Source: a virus
DNA length: 41,954 nt
IMG/VR virus record: IMGVR_UViG_3300022744_000012
Coordinates: 1 to 41,954 of that record
Reading direction: 5' to 3' (one strand)
Positions 4,648 to 29,715 of the stretch are shown in pieces. The first letter of the stretch is position 1; the number at the start of each line of letters is the position of its first letter. A program made the position numbers and the translations under genes. Below the pieces are notes generated by a model. It searched no databases. It had not been told where the DNA came from and saw nothing but the letters and a program-made list of their open reading frames with translations.

Positions 4648-5141
4648 GCAGCACGCTCGCACTACTCGCGGCAGAGCACCGCGCCGCAGCTCAGACGCTG
4701 GCGGAGCTTGGCCTGGACGATCAGACGATGGCCGACACGCTCGAGGGCATGTCGGGAGATCTGGAGCACAAAGCGCTTTCTGTCGCGCATGTTGCCCGCT
4801 CGCTCGATGCTGATGCATCTGCGGTAGAGCAGTGGGCAAAAGACGCGGCCGAAAGAGCCAAGGCGATCCGCGCCCAGGCAGACCGGCTGCGCGATTACCT
4901 GGAGCGCTCGCTTGATCTGGCCGGGATCGAGAAGGTCGAAGGGCCGGGCGTGCGGATCAGCTGGCGCAAGACCACTGCGGTGCAGATCGAGGACGCGGCG
5001 CAGATCCCTGTCGATCTGATGCGCGTCAAGCCTGCGCCGGCGCCTGAGCCGGACAAGACAGCGATTCGTGAGGCGATCAAGTCCGGCCGTGAAGTGCCGG
5101 GCGCCCGCATCACGACCGGCCGCGCTTTGCAAATCAAATGA
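4644..5141 (+). CDS. Gp157-family protein
   Basis: This 165-aa protein overlaps the annealing gene by ATGA. The layout matches the Sipho_Gp157 family: an N-terminal helical region, a coiled coil (AVEQWAKDAAERAKAIRAQADRLRDYLERSL) at about residues 60-90, then a conserved C-terminal part with VRISWRKTTAVQIED and KTAIREAIKSGREVPGARI. The family is frequent in phage recombination operons next to annealing proteins and SSB. It is thought to be linked to recombination or phage resistance, but its biochemical role is not established. Confidence 0.8.
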   Translation: MSSTLALLAAEHRAAAQTLAELGLDDQTMADTLEGMSGDLEHKALSVAHVARSLDADASAVEQWAKDAAERAKAIRAQADRLRDYLERSLDLAGIEKVEGPGVRISWRKTTAVQIEDAAQIPVDLMRVKPAPAPEPDKTAIREAIKSGREVPGARITTGRALQIK

Positions 5142-5392
5142 ACAACCGACTATCAGCGCGCGAGCGCAAGCACCTGGCGCACATCAAGTCAATGCCGTGC
5201 AGCGTGTGCGGCAATGACGGGCCGAGCGAGGCGCATCACATCCGGCAGCATGTGCAAGCGCTGTGCATCCCGCTGTGTGCGTCGTGCCACCGCAACCCGC
5301 ACAACGGGCTGCACGGCGGCCGGGCGATGTGGCGAGTGATGCGCATGGACGAGCTGGACGCGCTGGCAAAGACCATCGAGGCACTGGTATGA
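5138..5392 (+). CDS. Ref-like (RecA-dependent nuclease family) HNH protein
   Basis: This 84-aa protein overlaps Gp157 by ATGA. It has paired zinc Cys (CSVCG and CIPLCASCH), the His-His catalytic region (EAHHIRQH) and the closing HxxxxNGLHGGRAMWRVMRMDELDAL segment typical of the P1 Ref / RecA-dependent nuclease family. Phage P1 Ref cuts DNA within RecA-formed D-loops. This shorter protein has only the core nuclease domain. The position beside the annealing protein and NinB fits DNA recombination. Confidence 0.75.
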   Translation: MNNRLSARERKHLAHIKSMPCSVCGNDGPSEAHHIRQHVQALCIPLCASCHRNPHNGLHGGRAMWRVMRMDELDALAKTIEALV

Positions 5393-5814
5393 CCCGTCAG
5401 ACGTTCGCCCTGTACAACGCGCAGCAGGCATGGCAGGTTCTGCGCGACGCGGTGTGGCCGCTGGTCAAGTCGTTGACGATGGCAGAGCACCGGCTGACGC
5501 TGACGGTCGCAACAGAGAAGCGCAGCGACGCCCAGAACCGCATGCTCTGGTCGGCCCTGGGCGACCTGTCGCGGCAGATCACATGGCACGGTATGAAGCT
5601 ATCCGCCGAAGACTGGAAGTGCATGTGTACCGCGTCCCTGAAGAAGCAGCGCGCTGTGCCTGGGCTGGACGGTCAGAGCTTCGTGGTGCTGGGCCAGCCC
5701 ACTAGCACGATGACGAAAGCCGAGATGACAGAGCTGATCGACCTCATCCACTACACCGGCGCCGCGCATGATGTGCGCTGGTCGCCGGCATCAATCGCAG
5801 GAGAAACTGAATGA
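5389..5814 (+). CDS. ninB: Recombination protein NinB (lambda Orf family)
   Basis: This 141-aa protein overlaps the Ref-like gene by ATGA (5389-5392). Family hallmarks include KRSDAQNRMLWSALGDLSRQ, WHGMKLSAEDWKCMCTASLKK, a QSFVVLGQPTSTMTKAEMTELIDLI segment and the closing VRWS. Lambda Orf/NinB is a dimeric mediator that binds SSB-coated ssDNA and substitutes for RecFOR functions. Here it stands with an annealing protein, Gp157 and SSB, forming a complete recombination module. Confidence 0.88.
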   Translation: MTRQTFALYNAQQAWQVLRDAVWPLVKSLTMAEHRLTLTVATEKRSDAQNRMLWSALGDLSRQITWHGMKLSAEDWKCMCTASLKKQRAVPGLDGQSFVVLGQPTSTMTKAEMTELIDLIHYTGAAHDVRWSPASIAGETE

Positions 5815-7515: not shown

Positions 7516-7917
7516 ATGAGCAACCAACCGATTGCAACCCTCCCGATCGCCGAAGCCGTCGGCCTGATCCAGTACGTGTGCCACGAGGCCAGCAAGTCCG
7601 CCGGCTGGTGGCACGACCTGCACACCGGCGAGCCGATCGTCCAGCGCCCGCACGTCGTCGGCGAGAAGCTGTGCCTGATCCACAGCGAGGTGAGCGAGGC
7701 GATGGAGGGCCACCGCAAGGGCCTGATGGACGACAAGCTGCCCCACCGGCAAATGATCGAAGTGGAGCTGGCCGACGCGGTGATCCGCATCGCCGACCTG
7801 GCCGGCGCGCTCGGGCTCGACCTGGGCGGCGCCGTCGCCGAGAAGCTCGCCTACAACACCCGGCGCGCGGACCACAAGCCGGAGAACCGGCGAGCCGACG
7901 GCGGCAAGCAATACTGA
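7516..7917 (+). CDS. MazG-like nucleotide pyrophosphohydrolase
   Basis: This is a 133-aa all-alpha NTP pyrophosphatase. The core is EKLCLIHSEVSEAMEGHRKG (the E-x2-E metal site) followed by IEVELADAVIRIADLAG (the second E/D metal site) at about residues 50-100. The family hydrolyses NTPs or dNTPs to NMP and PPi; phage members may clean nucleotide pools or lower ppGpp-type signalling. It is the first gene of the block between the two ssb remnants, 12 bases before the intact ssb. Confidence 0.78.
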   Translation: MSNQPIATLPIAEAVGLIQYVCHEASKSAGWWHDLHTGEPIVQRPHVVGEKLCLIHSEVSEAMEGHRKGLMDDKLPHRQMIEVELADAVIRIADLAGALGLDLGGAVAEKLAYNTRRADHKPENRRADGGKQY

Positions 7918-7929
7918 GGAGGCGTCCCC

Positions 7930-8418
7930 ATGGCATCCATCAACAAAGTCATCCTCATCGGCAACCTCGGCCGCGACCCCGAGGTGCGCTACACCCCCAG
8001 CGGTGCGGCGATCTGCAACGTGTCGATCGCCACCACGCGCAAGTGGAAGGACAAGAACTCGGGCGAGCAGCAAGAGGAGTCCGAGTGGCATCGCGTCGTG
8101 TTCTATGACCGCCTCGCCGAGATCGCGGGCGAGTACCTGAAGAAGGGCCGCCCGGTCTACATCGAGGGCCGGCTGAAGACACGCAAGTGGCAGAGCCAAG
8201 ACGGGCGCGACAACTACACCACCGAGATCATCGCCGACAGCCTGCAGATGCTGGGCGCCCGCGACGAAGCCGCCAGCGCACCAGCTGCTGCGCCCAGCAG
8301 TGCGGCGCCGGCCAATGCCGCCACCCAGGCGCCGCGCCCGCGCGCCGCGGCGCCAGCGGCAGCCGCGCCGGCCGGTGGCGACGGCTTCGATGACATGGAG
8401 GACGACATCCCGTTCTGA
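7930..8418 (+). CDS. ssb: Single-stranded DNA-binding protein
   Basis: This complete 162-aa SSB follows GAGGAGGCG. The OB-fold spans about residues 1-110 ([21 protein letters not shown]..., [42 protein letters not shown]). An Ala/Pro-rich linker leads to the acidic tail [10 protein letters not shown] that recruits partner proteins. It works with the annealing protein and NinB. Cassette-type sequence begins nine bases after its stop (GTTAGGC, 8427-8433). It appears to be a xenologous replacement of the ssb whose two ends remain at 7401 and 9433. Confidence 0.93.
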
Positions 8419-8456
8419 AAACTGCTGTTAGGCCCTGGTGGCCGGAGAGGATGATG

Positions 8457-8714
8457 ATGGCAAAGCACTGCCAAGGATGTAGCCACCCAACGATTTGCGA
8501 CAGCCACGGCTGCGGCGAAGACGTGGCGCAAGCCAACAAGGCCCACCGCGAGAAAGCCCGCGCCGATGCGCGCCAGTTGCAGCACTGCGCGATTGCGGTG
8601 AGCGACTGGCTGGCCGGTGGCTGCGATGTGCACGACATACCGCGCCCGCATATTGCGGTGCTGGTGGCATGGGCCAAAGAAACGACCGCTGAGGCGGCCA
8701 GCCTTGGGGCCTAA
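8457..8714 (+). CDS. 85-aa cassette protein with Cys-rich N-terminus
   Basis: The start at 8457 is preferred over ATGs at 8451 and 8454 because GGAGAGG ends at 8450. The sequence is MAKHCQGCSHPTICDSHGCG..., with four Cys and two His in the first 20 residues (CxxC, C, C), probably one zinc site. A helical region (KAHREKARADARQLQHCAIAV) and the segment WLAGGCDVHDIPRPHI follow. The stop lies within the attC box. No family recognised. Cassette proteins are often small and novel. Confidence 0.65.
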   Translation: MAKHCQGCSHPTICDSHGCGEDVAQANKAHREKARADARQLQHCAIAVSDWLAGGCDVHDIPRPHIAVLVAWAKETTAEAASLGA

Positions 8715-8766
8715 CGTTGCAATTAACCTGCCGCCGTAGGCGGTCAGGTTGAATTGCGTGTTAGGC
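8709..8766 (+). other. attC site (integron recombination site)
   Basis: R'' is GCCTAAC (8709-8715, RYYYAAC) and R' is GTTAGGC (8760-8766, GTTRRRY), perfectly complementary. Inside, GCAATT (8718-8723) pairs with AATTGC (8753-8758), after a short unpaired spacer. AACCTG pairs with CAGGTT, and CCGCC with GGCGG around a GTA loop. The right arm carries two extra unpaired bases (an A between GGCGGT and CAGGTT on one strand's reading and a C before GAATTGC's partner), matching the extrahelical bases that orient attC folding. Structure and boxes together fit a functional attC. Confidence 0.85.
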
Positions 8767-8791
8767 GTGTGGTGGAGAAACGAGAGGAACT

Positions 8792-9133
8792 ATGAGTAGC
8801 GCTTACGGACACCTTGCACAAGTGCGCGACCGGACGATGGCCGAACCGCACCACCCGCAGAAGCTGGTGAATGTGCGCTTGGACTACCTGGATGCGGTGA
8901 TGCAGCACTACGTGGAGCTTGTCACCGACAACGCGACGCGCCGCGTGTTGAGCGATGCGCTGACCCAACAAAAGGGCGAAAACGCGGTGCTGGCCGGCCT
9001 GCTGCGCGACTGCGACGCGGTGCTGGCAACGATTGAAGCCGACGACAGCGACGAAGCCGAGAAGGTGCGCGACCTGCGCATGGCGCTGGCTTACGCGCTG
9101 GACCCGTACAAGCGAGAAGGGGCACTGCTGTGA
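8792..9133 (+). CDS. 113-aa cassette-borne hypothetical protein
   Basis: The ATG at 8792 follows GAGAGGAACT, 26 bases after the attC end. The acidic, helical product reads MSSAYGHLAQVRDRTMAEPH... with NVRLDYLDAVMQHYVELVTDNATRRVL in the middle and a region LATIEADDSDEAEKVRDLRM towards the end. No domain is recognised. It overlaps the next ORF by one base (TGATG), so the cassette encodes a translationally coupled pair. Paired small genes in cassettes are often toxin-antitoxin-like, but no such family is evident. Confidence 0.65.
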   Translation: MSSAYGHLAQVRDRTMAEPHHPQKLVNVRLDYLDAVMQHYVELVTDNATRRVLSDALTQQKGENAVLAGLLRDCDAVLATIEADDSDEAEKVRDLRMALAYALDPYKREGALL

Positions 9134-9387
9134 TGGACCTGACAAATAAGGCCGCCGCCTACGCAAACGCGCTGGACAGTGACATGGCCGCCCAGCCGTG
9201 GCAGCAGGTGCGCGACGGCAAGTTGTGGCGCGGGTACGTGGGCACGATCTACGGCTGCCCGATGGCAACGGACAACGGCACCACGTTCGACACCGCTGCC
9301 GCCGCGCTGGCGAATGCCGAACTGTTCCGCGAGCAGTGCCGCGAGATTCGGCGCAAGGCAACTGGTGGCGCACCTGAACACGCCTAA
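9133..9387 (+). CDS. 84-aa cassette-borne hypothetical protein
   Basis: The ATG at 9133 overlaps the preceding stop (TGATG). The sequence MDLTNKAAAYANALDSDMAA leads to a compact segment with WQQVRDGKLWRGYVGTIYGCP, which could be a small beta-sheet domain, and a C-terminal helix (AALANAELFREQCREIRRKA). The stop TAA is within the GCCTAAC box. No recognised family. It forms a pair with the 113-aa protein. Confidence 0.65.
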   Translation: MDLTNKAAAYANALDSDMAAQPWQQVRDGKLWRGYVGTIYGCPMATDNGTTFDTAAAALANAELFREQCREIRRKATGGAPEHA

Positions 9388-9404
9388 CTTGTTGTAGATG
9401 GACG

Positions 9405-9424
9405 GCCGCGTCTCATGACGCGGC
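9405..9424. other. Perfect 8-bp hairpin at the cassette/ssb-remnant junction
   Basis: GCCGCGTC-TCAT-GACGCGGC (9405-9424) forms an 8-bp stem. It begins 17 bases after the incomplete attC box and ends nine bases before the ssb C-terminal remnant, so it marks the right edge of the imported block. No T run follows on either strand. Confidence 0.5.
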
Positions 9425-9465
9425 TGATCGGATTCGACAACATGGATGACGATATCCCGTTCTGA
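9415..9465 (+). pseudogene. C-terminal remnant of an ssb gene
   Basis: This short frame ends ...GFDNMDDDIPF then TGA (9433-9465), the conserved acidic SSB tail. The intact SSB ends [11 protein letters not shown], but its codons differ, so this is a different allele. Nothing before GF resembles SSB. Together with the N-terminal stump at 7401 it brackets the MazG-SSB-cassette block and is best read as the right end of the original ssb. Confidence 0.75.
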
Positions 9466-9474
9466 TCAACCACA

Positions 9475-9492
9475 CCGGGGCTACGGCCCCGG
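9475..9492. terminator. GC hairpin ending the rightward operon
   Basis: CCGGGGC-TACG-GCCCCGG is a perfect 7-bp stem ten bases after the TGA of the ssb remnant. It lacks a T run, so termination would be weak or factor-assisted. It shares the TGATCAAC prefix with the hairpin at 7482-7499. Confidence 0.5.
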
Positions 9493-9540
9493 CCCATGAC
9501 GACAGCGCCAGCACCGCCTGACGCTGCCGCGATGGGCCAT

Positions 9541-9690
9541 CCCGGGTTAGGCCGGGGTCTGGGGTCAACCTCTCCACCGGAGGCGAAGCCAGAAAGAACA
9601 CACCGCGCCTGCCTTGCATCGCGGCCCCCATCATCAAATCGCGAGGGCGGCAGATCATCTGCGGCGGCATCACGCGGCCGGGGCGCCCTC
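9541..9690 (+). ncRNA. Structured region, possibly C4-antisense-RNA/Ash-like
   Basis: No convincing start codon with a ribosome-binding site was found between 9466 and 9764, but the plus strand is rich in nested stems: CTCC/GGAG (9572-9582), GGC-GAA-GCC (9582-9590), CCGCG/CGCGG (9603-9624), GAGGGCG/CGCCCTC (9643-9690) enclosing GCAGAT/ATCTGC (9650-9662). From memory the GGAGGCGAAGCCAGAAAGAA segment recalls the C4 antisense RNA and ash region of P1/P4-type phages. A 74-codon frame (9496-9720) containing SPPEAKPERTHRACLASRP may be the related Ash-type frame. C4 RNAs control antirepressors, and an antirepressor exists at 39915-40631. Tentative. Confidence 0.3.
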
Positions 9691-10070: not shown

Positions 10071-11014
10071 AGTGCGTGCCCTGTGTAGTCGCGCGGCTGC
10101 GCATGCCCGATTGTCGCCCGCTCGGCTGCGGCCATCGAGCCGCGGCGCTCGCCGGCCATGCAGATGGTCACCCGGGCTGCCGCAGTCGCCGATGTCGCGC
10201 GAGCCTGGGCGATTGCCAGATGAGTGACGGACACGGCCAATTGTTGCGCATCGGCAACGATGCCGGCCGATGTTGCAACGAGATCGTCCAGCAGCGCCGC
10301 ACATGATGCTGACACACCGACCGCGCCGGATGCTGATGCGCCAATCTCGCCGATGGCCTGATCTGACGCAGCCGACACAGGCGTGCCGCCCACGCCAACT
10401 GATTCGACCGCGCCGAGGATCTGGTCTGATGAGCCGGCTACAGGCGCCGTGCCAGTCGATGCCGCACCGATCTGGCCGATGGCCCGGCTTGCGAATGCCG
10501 ACACCGCCGCAGACCCGACGCCAGCCGACACCACTGCACCGACCGACAGCGCCGACGATGCCGCGATCAGCACCGAGCCGGCAGCTGCGCCACCGACTGC
10601 ACCGAGCGTCACCGAGCCAGTCAGCCCGCCAGACGCCACCGAGCCGGCCGCGACCGATGCGACTGCGCCGAGCGTTGCCGATCCCGACGCGCTGACGCGC
10701 ACGCCGGCCGAGCCAACCCCGGTTACCGCTCCGAGCGTCGCCGCGCCTGATGCGGCCGCCGCGGCCGCCGCTGTGCTGGCGCTGCTGATCGCGCCGAGCG
10801 TCACCGCCTGGAGACCCTTCACCGCCGCAGCGCCGGCAGCGGTCTGAGTCACTGCGCCAAGGGTTGCAGCGCCAGAGCCGGCCACGGCGGCACGCGCAAC
10901 AGCCGAGCCGGTCAGTGCGCCGAGCGTGACAGCCGACGTGCCGGTGACGCCGCCCGCCAGCTCGCCGACCGCATACCCTGCGGTCCAGTAGCCAGTGACG
11001 GCATAGGTCGCCAT
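10067..11014 (-). CDS. Repetitive Ala/Gly/Val/Ser-rich fibre-like protein
   Basis: This 315-aa protein is built of about ten 21-22-residue repeats beginning (A/V)TLGA(V/L/I), such as ATLGAVTQTAAGAAAVKG. The repeats predict a stacked beta-solenoid or elongated fibre. The C-terminal 90 residues are helical (LLDDLVATSAGIVADAQQLAVSVTHLAIAQARATSA). It overlaps neighbours at both ends (ATGA at 10067; shared base at 11014). It is probably a virion appendage; base composition is strongly GC-biased. Confidence 0.55.
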   Translation of the reverse strand: MATYAVTGYWTAGYAVGELAGGVTGTSAVTLGALTGSAVARAAVAGSGAATLGAVTQTAAGAAAVKGLQAVTLGAISSASTAAAAAAASGAATLGAVTGVGSAGVRVSASGSATLGAVASVAAGSVASGGLTGSVTLGAVGGAAAGSVLIAASSALSVGAVVSAGVGSAAVSAFASRAIGQIGAASTGTAPVAGSSDQILGAVESVGVGGTPVSAASDQAIGEIGASASGAVGVSASCAALLDDLVATSAGIVADAQQLAVSVTHLAIAQARATSATAAARVTICMAGERRGSMAAAERATIGHAQPRDYTGHAL

Positions 11015-12243
11015 CAGTTATCCGTTTCGACGTACAAGCCGAACATCGTCAGCCCCGTCACGCTGCTGGTTCCGCCGACGCTGTGGTACGCACGGGGGCC
11101 GCAGGCGGTCGTGATCGTGAGCAGGTCAGTCGTCGCCGTGCTGGAAAACGTCGCGCCGGTCGTCTCATCGACCAGCTGCACCGACAGCGATGCACCGCCA
11201 GCCGGGGCGAAGATCATCACCGAAAACGGGCCGCTGCGGTCTGCGCTCGGGCGGGTCATGCCGGTATTGACTTTCGTCGCCGTTCCGGTCGCGTCGTTGA
11301 AATACAGCTGCCAGTTGGCATCCGCCGCGTCATACCCAGCGCCAACAATGTCCGTCAGCGTCGATGGATCAACATCAGTAGGCGCAGCGGTCGCGCCAGC
11401 CATGCCGCAGAAAAACCGTTGCGTCGTCACGCCAGTGGTGCCGGTCGCAGGAGCCACGCGGGCAATCATGTGATACCCGTCCGTGCCTCGATAGACGTTG
11501 GTCGCGATGCGGTAGCCTGCGACGGCCGTGGTTGATGCGGTTGTCTGCAGGTAGTCGACGCGCGTGGATCGCGTGTGCAGGCTGGTCGTCGCGTAGTTGG
11601 CGGCCGTGGCTGTGCCGGTTGCAGTCAGGGCCGCCGCGCCGATGGCGCTGATCGTTGCGGAGTTGGCCGCTGGCCGCCACTGCGCCCAGCCGTTGCGCGC
11701 GAGGTGCGGCTGCAGGCTGGTCGTCAAGCCGGTGGCGATCCGAAACGCAGGGATGTACCGACCGCCAAGCAGCTTTGCGAAAACGTTGATGTGACCAGTC
11801 GGCGGCGCTGGTGGCTCGCTAGCGTGCCCCGGCAGAGTCAACGTGTTGTTTTCATCGTCCCAGATGTCGATGCTGACGCCCGTCCAGTTGGTCGCGCTGG
11901 TAGCAATCAGGTCAACCGCGTTGCCCGGTGGCAGCGTCAGCGGCGTGTTGATCACGCCGTCGATCGACTGCCCCACGGCCGGGTAGACCTGCACTGCGTT
12001 GGCGGTGTGGTTGACGATCGTGCGCGTCAGACCGGGGTCTGGCGTGCCGAGGATCACGCCGGAACCGGCCGAGCTGGTCGTGATAAATGCCACCGTCGAC
12101 GCAATCGCCGTTGCTGTGCCCTGCGTTGTGCCGGCAGCCGTCACCGCGGCTGAAACGGTCGTGTTGAGCGCCGACCAATTGGCGTCGACCTCGGCCCAGG
12201 TCAGCTCGGCGCCTTTGCCGGTGCGGGTGGTCAGCGTCGGCAT
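11014..12243 (-). CDS. Tail fibre / receptor-binding protein
   Basis: The 409-aa protein has an N-terminus LTTRTGKGAELTWAEVDANW that is a common attachment motif of phage fibre proteins. Residues 30-130 are beta-rich. The C-terminal half (GYRIATNVYRGTDGYHMIARV, RFFCGMAG, ANWQLYFND, PFSVMIFAP) looks like a carbohydrate-binding jelly-roll/concanavalin-like domain. It probably determines host recognition together with the tailspike at 13668-15875. Confidence 0.65.
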   Translation of the reverse strand: MPTLTTRTGKGAELTWAEVDANWSALNTTVSAAVTAAGTTQGTATAIASTVAFITTSSAGSGVILGTPDPGLTRTIVNHTANAVQVYPAVGQSIDGVINTPLTLPPGNAVDLIATSATNWTGVSIDIWDDENNTLTLPGHASEPPAPPTGHINVFAKLLGGRYIPAFRIATGLTTSLQPHLARNGWAQWRPAANSATISAIGAAALTATGTATAANYATTSLHTRSTRVDYLQTTASTTAVAGYRIATNVYRGTDGYHMIARVAPATGTTGVTTQRFFCGMAGATAAPTDVDPSTLTDIVGAGYDAADANWQLYFNDATGTATKVNTGMTRPSADRSGPFSVMIFAPAGGASLSVQLVDETTGATFSSTATTDLLTITTACGPRAYHSVGGTSSVTGLTMFGLYVETDN

Positions 12244-28455: not shown

Positions 28456-29715
28456 TCAGGCTTGGCGGATGCGGGCCAGGCCCGGGAACTTGGATGCGGC
28501 GCCGGCCGAGTCCTGTGCGACGGTCGGCGTCGATGCGATGGCCGGCCGGCTGGCGGCCACGCGGAACAGCGCGCGCAGCGCCGGGGCGCCGGCCACATCC
28601 TTGCGGTCGATCTTCAGGTGATCCAGTGCGAAGCCGTAGATGTCGGCGGCCGAGTCCATGCCCAGCACATCACCGACGACGGGGCGCACATCGACGCGCG
28701 CCTCGTTGGCCTCGCGGAACTCCTTGCGCATCGCGTCCATCGCAGCAGCGACTTCTTCCTTCTTCATGCCTTCCTCCTTCGGCGGCTGTTCGTCGGTGGC
28801 GGCCGGGGCGATCATGGCGATGATGTCGGCGATCACCGATTCATCGACCTTGCCGGCCAGCATGGCGCGCACCTTGTCGGCCGGGGTTTCGTCCTTGGCG
28901 ACGGTCGGCGGCACCTCTTGGGCGTTCGGCTCTTGCTCGACATCCAGGATGGCGTCCAGGATGGCGTCCAGCTTCTGCGAATCAATCGCAGCATCCAGCG
29001 CCATCAGCTTGGCCTTGGCGGCCGGCTTGTCGAAGGTCTTTCGGCTGGCGCCGCCCACCAGTGCGGCAACGGCGGAATCCGCTGCAAACACGGGTGAGGC
29101 TGCGCACAGGGCTGCAAACAGGGCTCGGCCCGTCTTGCTCATTTTCACAGCGGTTTCCTTGTGGTGGAAAGGGGATTGGTCGGCGACAACAACATCAGAT
29201 CCCGCGCGGCCGACCTCCACGAGCGCGAGGTGATTTCCTTGAATCTCGGTCATGCGCCCGTCATAGGGCTGGCCCTCATAGGCGCCGGGCTGCATGACCG
29301 GGACGTAGCGGTAGGAGCACGACAGCTCGCGCACCTTGTCTGTCTCGATGCCAGCAATCGCGCGGGCATCCCACACGCACAGATCGGCATCAAGATACGG
29401 AGCTGCAAACACGACGTCCGACCCGATCGCGCCGACCACCAGATCCGGGCGCGGCGCCTCGACCGTGACCGGGACATGCTCCGACAGAATGGGCAGACGG
29501 GCGAACGTCGGAGCGGCACGCTCCAACTCGACCGGATCGCGCAGCAGGCGGTAAACCTTGTCGGGGTCGAGCCCGAGCGCTTCAGCGCCCGGAATCTCGC
29601 GGCCGTAGTACGGATTCACCGCCGCCTTGCTGATGTGCGAGCGCTCAACGTGCAACCGCCCGTCGGCGTCAATCCGGCGCGCGGTGCGGTCGAAAGCCAG
29701 TCGCAAGTTAGGCAT
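28456..29715 (-). CDS. DUF2213 head maturation protease / scaffold
   Basis: The ATG at 29713-29715 gives 419 aa (a GTG two codons earlier is possible). The N-terminal 200 residues hold the DUF2213 domain (ISKAAVNPYYGREIPGAEAL, LPILSEHVPVTV, RELSCSYRYVPVMQPGAYEG, GNHLALVEVGRAGSDVVVAD; the His in GNHLAL and Ser in LSCSY are probable catalytic residues). The acidic Ala/Lys/Glu-rich C-terminal half resembles a scaffold. It processes the prohead. Confidence 0.8.
   Translation of the reverse strand: MPNLRLAFDRTARRIDADGRLHVERSHISKAAVNPYYGREIPGAEALGLDPDKVYRLLRDPVELERAAPTFARLPILSEHVPVTVEAPRPDLVVGAIGSDVVFAAPYLDADLCVWDARAIAGIETDKVRELSCSYRYVPVMQPGAYEGQPYDGRMTEIQGNHLALVEVGRAGSDVVVADQSPFHHKETAVKMSKTGRALFAALCAASPVFAADSAVAALVGGASRKTFDKPAAKAKLMALDAAIDSQKLDAILDAILDVEQEPNAQEVPPTVAKDETPADKVRAMLAGKVDESVIADIIAMIAPAATDEQPPKEEGMKKEEVAAAMDAMRKEFREANEARVDVRPVVGDVLGMDSAADIYGFALDHLKIDRKDVAGAPALRALFRVAASRPAIASTPTVAQDSAGAASKFPGLARIRQA

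Follow-up and report, generated by a model that had tools for sequence, protein, structure and literature searches.

In integrons, the gene-capture platforms of bacteria, a promoter near attI drives the captured cassettes in the direction of their attC sites. A sequence resembling an attC site lies directly behind the ssb gene of the IMG/VR virus record IMGVR_UViG_3300022744_000012 (the window, i.e. the whole stretch of 41,954 nucleotides that was analysed), and it raises the question of whether a phage carries a genuine gene cassette, which genes such a cassette comprises and from where it was acquired. The window codes for sheath, baseplate, tape measure, portal, terminase and O/DnaC-like replication proteins and is therefore assigned to a contractile-tailed phage, whose tail region recovered no near match in the phages collection. 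A first-pass annotation had read positions 8427-8766 as one complete cassette, formed by a small ORF (ORF1) and a following attC site, and had proposed an integron integrase acting on phage DNA, or recombination with a chromosomal integron, as its source.

The candidate attC site is a 58-bp element (8709-8766) in which the R boxes pair, as do the segments GCAATT/AATTGC, AACCTG/CAGGTT and CCGCC/GGCGG, with the unpaired extra bases T8744 and G8751 confined to one arm, on the plus strand. It thus displays the paired R''/R' and L''/L' boxes, the spacers and the one-arm extrahelical bases that typify the attC of an integron cassette. All pairs listed in the first-pass annotation were seen, and the fold is far better than that of shuffled versions (z -6.3; none of 200 shuffles as good). 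The covariance check which that annotation had suggested was performed with a model, R1, of 13 aligned attC sites drawn from class 1 cassettes of plasmids and from the integron of a Shewanella phage, with the longer sites trimmed in the loop and the family of the window phage absent from the alignment. Run without filters over the whole window, R1 placed its top match exactly at 8709-8766 on the minus strand with 44.4 bits (E=3.4e-9); the next-best place in the window reached 10.5 bits, and 701 kb from 80 other phage loci, used as a negative control, yielded no match at E<=1. The element is a genuine attC site.

The polarity of this site bears on which genes it would mobilize. Class 1 attC sites carry the extra bases on the top strand, within its 5' arm, and are preceded by the gene. 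This geometry, namely a 7-nt R box, a 5-nt spacer, an extra C, an extra A and a 6-nt spacer, is reproduced by the minus strand of the window site, and the plus strand obtains just 18.7 bits with R1 at the same place. The canonical polarity is thus that of the minus strand, which assigns the site to the unit on its right. The crossover would be predicted between 8714 and 8715 (GCCTAA|C on the plus strand), and the plus strand is expected to be the one that folds and recombines, because the extrahelical T8744 and G8751 lie on it. A search with ORF2 (113 aa; 8792-9133, plus strand), which starts 25 nt behind the attC site, recovered a second phage contig, L002, with the same attC, ORF2 and ORF3. 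Positions 8715-9387 of the window are 88% identical in nucleotides to 4924-5542 of L002, with identity at chance level in the 250 bp on either side, so that the unit is bounded exactly by the predicted crossover points in one other context. The candidate mobile unit (8715-9387, plus strand) would hence consist of the attC site, a ribosome-binding site, ORF2 and ORF3 (9133-9387, plus strand; 84 aa from the ATG at 9133 or 85 aa from the GTG at 9130). The TAA of ORF3 lies inside a GCCTAAC boundary box (9382-9388, plus strand), which marks the right, attI-side end of the array and at which the homology to L002 stops. The substitutions between the two contigs in ORF2 and ORF3 fall 21/16/47 on codon positions 1/2/3, a skew from which it follows that both genes are genuinely encoded on the plus strand. 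ORF2 had no relatives in the phages collection, and ORF1, ORF2 and ORF3 matched no family of Pfam or PHROG. All ORFs of the array are on the plus strand and the attC polarity is minus; the co-orientation of gene and attC that is typical, although not obligatory, of cassettes is thus lacking here. Consequently, an attC and a cassette structure behind ssb in a tailed phage, as first described, are borne out by the R1 match and by the exactly bounded unit shared with L002, but the delimitation of the cassette as ORF1 plus attC has to be abandoned on both polarity and homology. That annotation had not remarked on the attC polarity given by the side of the extra bases, on the unit at 8715-9387, on the box at 9382-9388 or on the repeat of the ssb 3' end described below. 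A possible second attC site spanning 9382-9555, with a GTTAGGC near 9545, was also considered; the region folds but gave no covariance match, and 9382-9388 was therefore taken as a boundary box only, of the R type.

Directly upstream of the array lies ssb (7930-8418, plus strand; PHROG phrog_44, 9.8e-57; Pfam SSB, 2.3e-41). The GTTAGGC at 8427-8433 (plus strand), correctly placed by the first-pass annotation, lies 8 bases behind its stop codon. It is followed by ORF1 (87 aa; 8451-8714, plus strand), whose TAA stop (8712-8714) indeed lies, as had been noticed, inside the GCCTAAC at 8709-8715, a position within the R' box of the attC that follows. Given the minus-strand polarity, the attC of ORF1 itself is expected to its left, where only the GTTAGGC at 8427-8433 remains; R1 has no match there. 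Our reading is that this box is the R'' box left from a truncated attC and that ORF1 is probably the remnant of a cassette, cut short by a recombination that took place later, within or close to ssb. ORF1 had no relatives in the viral_contigs and phages collections. A second copy of the 3' end of ssb lies behind the array (9429-9465, plus strand; 86% identical to 8382-8418), and at least the left end would have been reshaped afterwards by another type of recombination involving the ssb tail. The copy contains a 16-codon frame (ATG ACG CGG ... TTC TGA) ending in the SSB C-terminal motif (MDDDIPF), which might represent either what is left of a second ssb or a short SSB tail that is expressed. 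No empty site was found: among 80 loci with relatives of the upstream gene 7516-7917 none has an attC, the three that were inspected differ in sequence behind ssb, and relatives of 11014-12243 amount to two weak partial matches. In the window record there is no TIGR02249 match at E<=1, i.e. no intI gene as a complete integron would have, and any present mobility of the unit therefore requires an integrase of outside origin. Between 7400 and 9800, no sigma-70-like promoter was detected. IntegronFinder 2 by default reports a CALIN, a cluster of attC sites without integrase, only from two attC sites (PMC9024848). The window has one intact attC (8709-8766) and, the attC of the ORF1 cassette being truncated, its array would be missed under these settings; a program that requires two or more attC sites before it reports a cluster overlooks cases of this kind.

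The 20-bp core of the attC was found in seven other IMG/VR viral contigs, that of L002 among them, with differing sequence on both sides. R1 detected 6, 3, 6, 3, 4+2, 4 and 1 attC sites in the contigs found through the core, and in two of the core-sharing contigs the encoded IntI exceeds the curated cut-off (430 and 427 bits). Across 84,980 bacterial and archaeal genomes (genome_contigs) the core was matched four times only, and on inspection none of these matches proved to be an attC site. On this distribution, recombination with a chromosomal integron, one of the two sources initially proposed, appears less likely than exchange among phages.

These contigs appear to belong to a wider class. 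An IntI profile search of IMG/VR recovered at least 470 relatives, and R1 detected attC sites in about 40 of the best 80, which were examined; near the phage IntI genes, nearly all matches have the side and polarity expected of an integron. In these contigs the main ORF lies on the strand of IntI, against the attC polarity, in 78 of 81 intervals. A stricter count was restricted to intervals between two neighbouring attC sites, with a ribosome-site filter on the ORFs. It gave an antisense to sense ratio of 59:1 in the IMG/VR contigs, a sample tied to that database, mostly metagenomic and with several near copies, against 11:32 in chromosomal integrons of two bacterial orders (Burkholderiales and Xanthomonadales) and 0:5 in class 1 plasmids and Shewanella and Vibrio phages (Fisher p 1e-16 after removal of near-duplicates and inclusion of three further bacterial loci). 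Without the ribosome-site filter the asymmetry weakens to 36:25 in the IMG/VR contigs versus 16:72 in bacteria, which we attribute to long spurious ORFs in GC-rich DNA; a GC3>GC1>GC2 filter in its place gives 48:7 versus 26:31. As the counting of longest ORFs without ribosome sites is noisy, a homology control was added. The antisense set of 68 proteins (66 from the arrays, including ORF2, together with ORF1 and ORF3 of the window) matches 61 families in PHROG and 15 in Pfam, the lowest E-value being 1e-111, and the 62 sense ORFs produced two weak PHROG family matches and none in Pfam. With homology as the decisive control, these comparisons support the strand antisense to attC as the coding strand of the cassettes.

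In these arrays, an antisense ORF start led by a Shine-Dalgarno (SD) sequence occurs at 96 of 114 sites (80 within 200 nt behind the attC and 16 inside it), and at 36 of the 114 the TAA of the R' box serves as the stop codon of an SD-led ORF of 45 aa or more, a layout that fits a cassette with its crossover just behind the stop codon. In the direction of transcription, the attC of a reversed array stands at the 5' end of the gene, with the ribosome-binding site and start codon either following it or sitting in its loop; many of the genes take their stop from the TAA of the next R box, which places the predicted crossover directly after the stop codon. The window phage shows the same arrangement, with genes against the attC polarity and an SD-led start shortly behind R''. 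In three cases, L027 (G003 29178-29617), L028:652-754 and L030:10503-10593, the hairpin loop of a long attC contains both the ribosome site and the start codon, and an arm of this attC encodes the N-terminus of the protein (...PVERRVGR..., ...PVDCQVRP...).

The contigs encoding IntI carry terminase, portal, minor head, maturation protease, tape measure, tail fiber and Mor-type genes. In a quick FastTree analysis of 136 IntI sequences, 38 phage sequences form one phage-only clade (local support 98), to which neither IntI1 nor the sampled chromosomal IntI belong; the clade is provisional, since the bacterial rows were picked by HMM score from two orders only. Other phage IntI with reversed arrays were placed outside this clade, and the closest bacterial IntI among those sampled (60%) lies within a canonical array. 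Separately, the IntI of two IMG/VR contigs (L163 and L164) are identical or nearly identical to that of class 1 integrons, and these are possibly class 1 integrons in misclassified contigs. The published record of Virus Rctr41k (L045, KX853513.1) has an IntI-like gene annotated as xerD (4680-5678), with no attC matches nearby.

The first-pass annotation regarded cassettes in tailed phages as rarely reported. Phage integrons and CALINs have in fact been described already (Qi et al. 2023, PMC9892861), where IntI1 recombined five of the six assayed phage attC sites with attI1. This precedent lowers the novelty of the cassette as such; it is the reversed orientation that is more novel, as no published report of reversed cassettes in phages was found in the open-access literature that was searched. 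The array in the window resembles the CALINs of that study in combining attC cassettes, a tailed phage and no integrase, but the study required at least two attC sites, and the cassettes of TJE1 and PH101 are, going by its description, in the typical bacterial orientation (PMC9892861). With class 1 cassettes (e.g. aadA2, catB3) the window shares the R boxes, the 5/6-nt spacers and two one-arm extrahelical bases; their genes, however, follow the attC polarity with the attC behind the gene, whereas those of the window oppose it with the attC before the gene. The chromosomal integrons of Burkholderiales and Xanthomonadales share with the phage arrays the IntI family and an attC polarity pointing away from intI, but their cassettes are mostly sense (32:11) and none of the IntI sampled from them belongs to the 38-row phage clade. 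In Treponema integrons intI and the cassette genes are co-directional, as in the phage arrays; there, however, it is intI that is transcribed toward attI (PMC3607928), whereas the phage intI has its normal place and direction and the cassette genes are flipped instead.

Several other accounts of the locus deserve consideration. A hairpin with a good fold between the genes of an operon could be an RNA element, such as a terminator or leader structure, with a merely fortuitous likeness to attC. This is hardly credible, given that no Rfam family matches anywhere in the window, that an independent attC model recovers the strand-specific geometry, that the homology boundaries coincide exactly with the predicted crossover points, and that multi-site arrays adjoin IntI in related contigs. 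A canonical cassette of ORF1 and its own attC, taken from a chromosomal integron of the host, is likewise very improbable. Such integrons are common in Burkholderiales and Xanthomonadales, and ORF1 is framed by GTTAGGC and a terminal GCCTAAC box; yet the stronger attC score is on the other strand, the candidate mobile unit is that of the attC with ORF2 and ORF3, and the core appears as an attC in viral contigs but not in the 84,980 bacterial and archaeal genomes. The most serious alternative, which partly coincides with the explanation that we prefer, is about how the array arrived and whether it is still active: the array would have been built by IntI in another phage, would have arrived through homologous or illegitimate recombination at ssb, and would now be an immobile, passive relic. 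The missing intI, the truncated left attC and the ssb 3' ends flanking the insert (8382-8418 and 9429-9465) speak for this, and we give it somewhat less than an even chance, as the remaining attC is complete and scores as high as those beside phage IntI genes, so that its excision in trans should still be possible.

All told, it is very probable, judging from the sequence comparisons, that the window phage carries a short integrase-less array, with one intact cassette and the ORF1 remnant, belonging to a widespread phage class with reversed cassettes. The anatomy of these arrays suggests that an IntI supplied in trans, by a co-infecting or resident phage or by the host, would cut the folded plus strand at GCCTAA|C, and that cassettes would move between phages in this manner. 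The genes of phage arrays run toward intI, and hence a promoter near attI cannot be the source of their expression; they may instead be expressed by read-through from the early operon of the phage, which would explain why reversed cassettes have been kept.

The cargo of the reversed cassettes includes C5 and N6/N4 DNA methyltransferases, Mom, PAPS reductase-like, RNA ligase and DHH phosphoesterase families, and a Tad2-like domain. An Acb2/Tad1 hairpin domain is found in three cassettes, two of which, checked singly, fall below the Pfam cut-off. Individual loci (L138:1231-1875, L134:4540-5595, L144:2669-3628, L152:4505-4798, L027:8275-8643 and L152:5177-5539) encode Mom, a pair of DNA-methyltransferase-like proteins named by eye, DUF7736 and weak Acb2/Tad1-hairpin proteins, products with putative roles in counter-defence and DNA modification.

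We consider it fairly likely that phages possess an integron system of their own, with an IntI lineage, reversed cassettes fitted to phage operons, and a shared pool of cassettes in which genes for counter-defence and DNA modification abound and which also circulates among integrase-less phages. This suggests that phages may use integrons to trade genes among themselves. Their reversed arrays open the way to a direct test of the rule by which attC polarity determines the direction of the genes, and, if the proposal is true, integrons would provide for a modular swapping of phage accessory genes, such as those for Mom, DNA methyltransferases and the Tad2-like protein.
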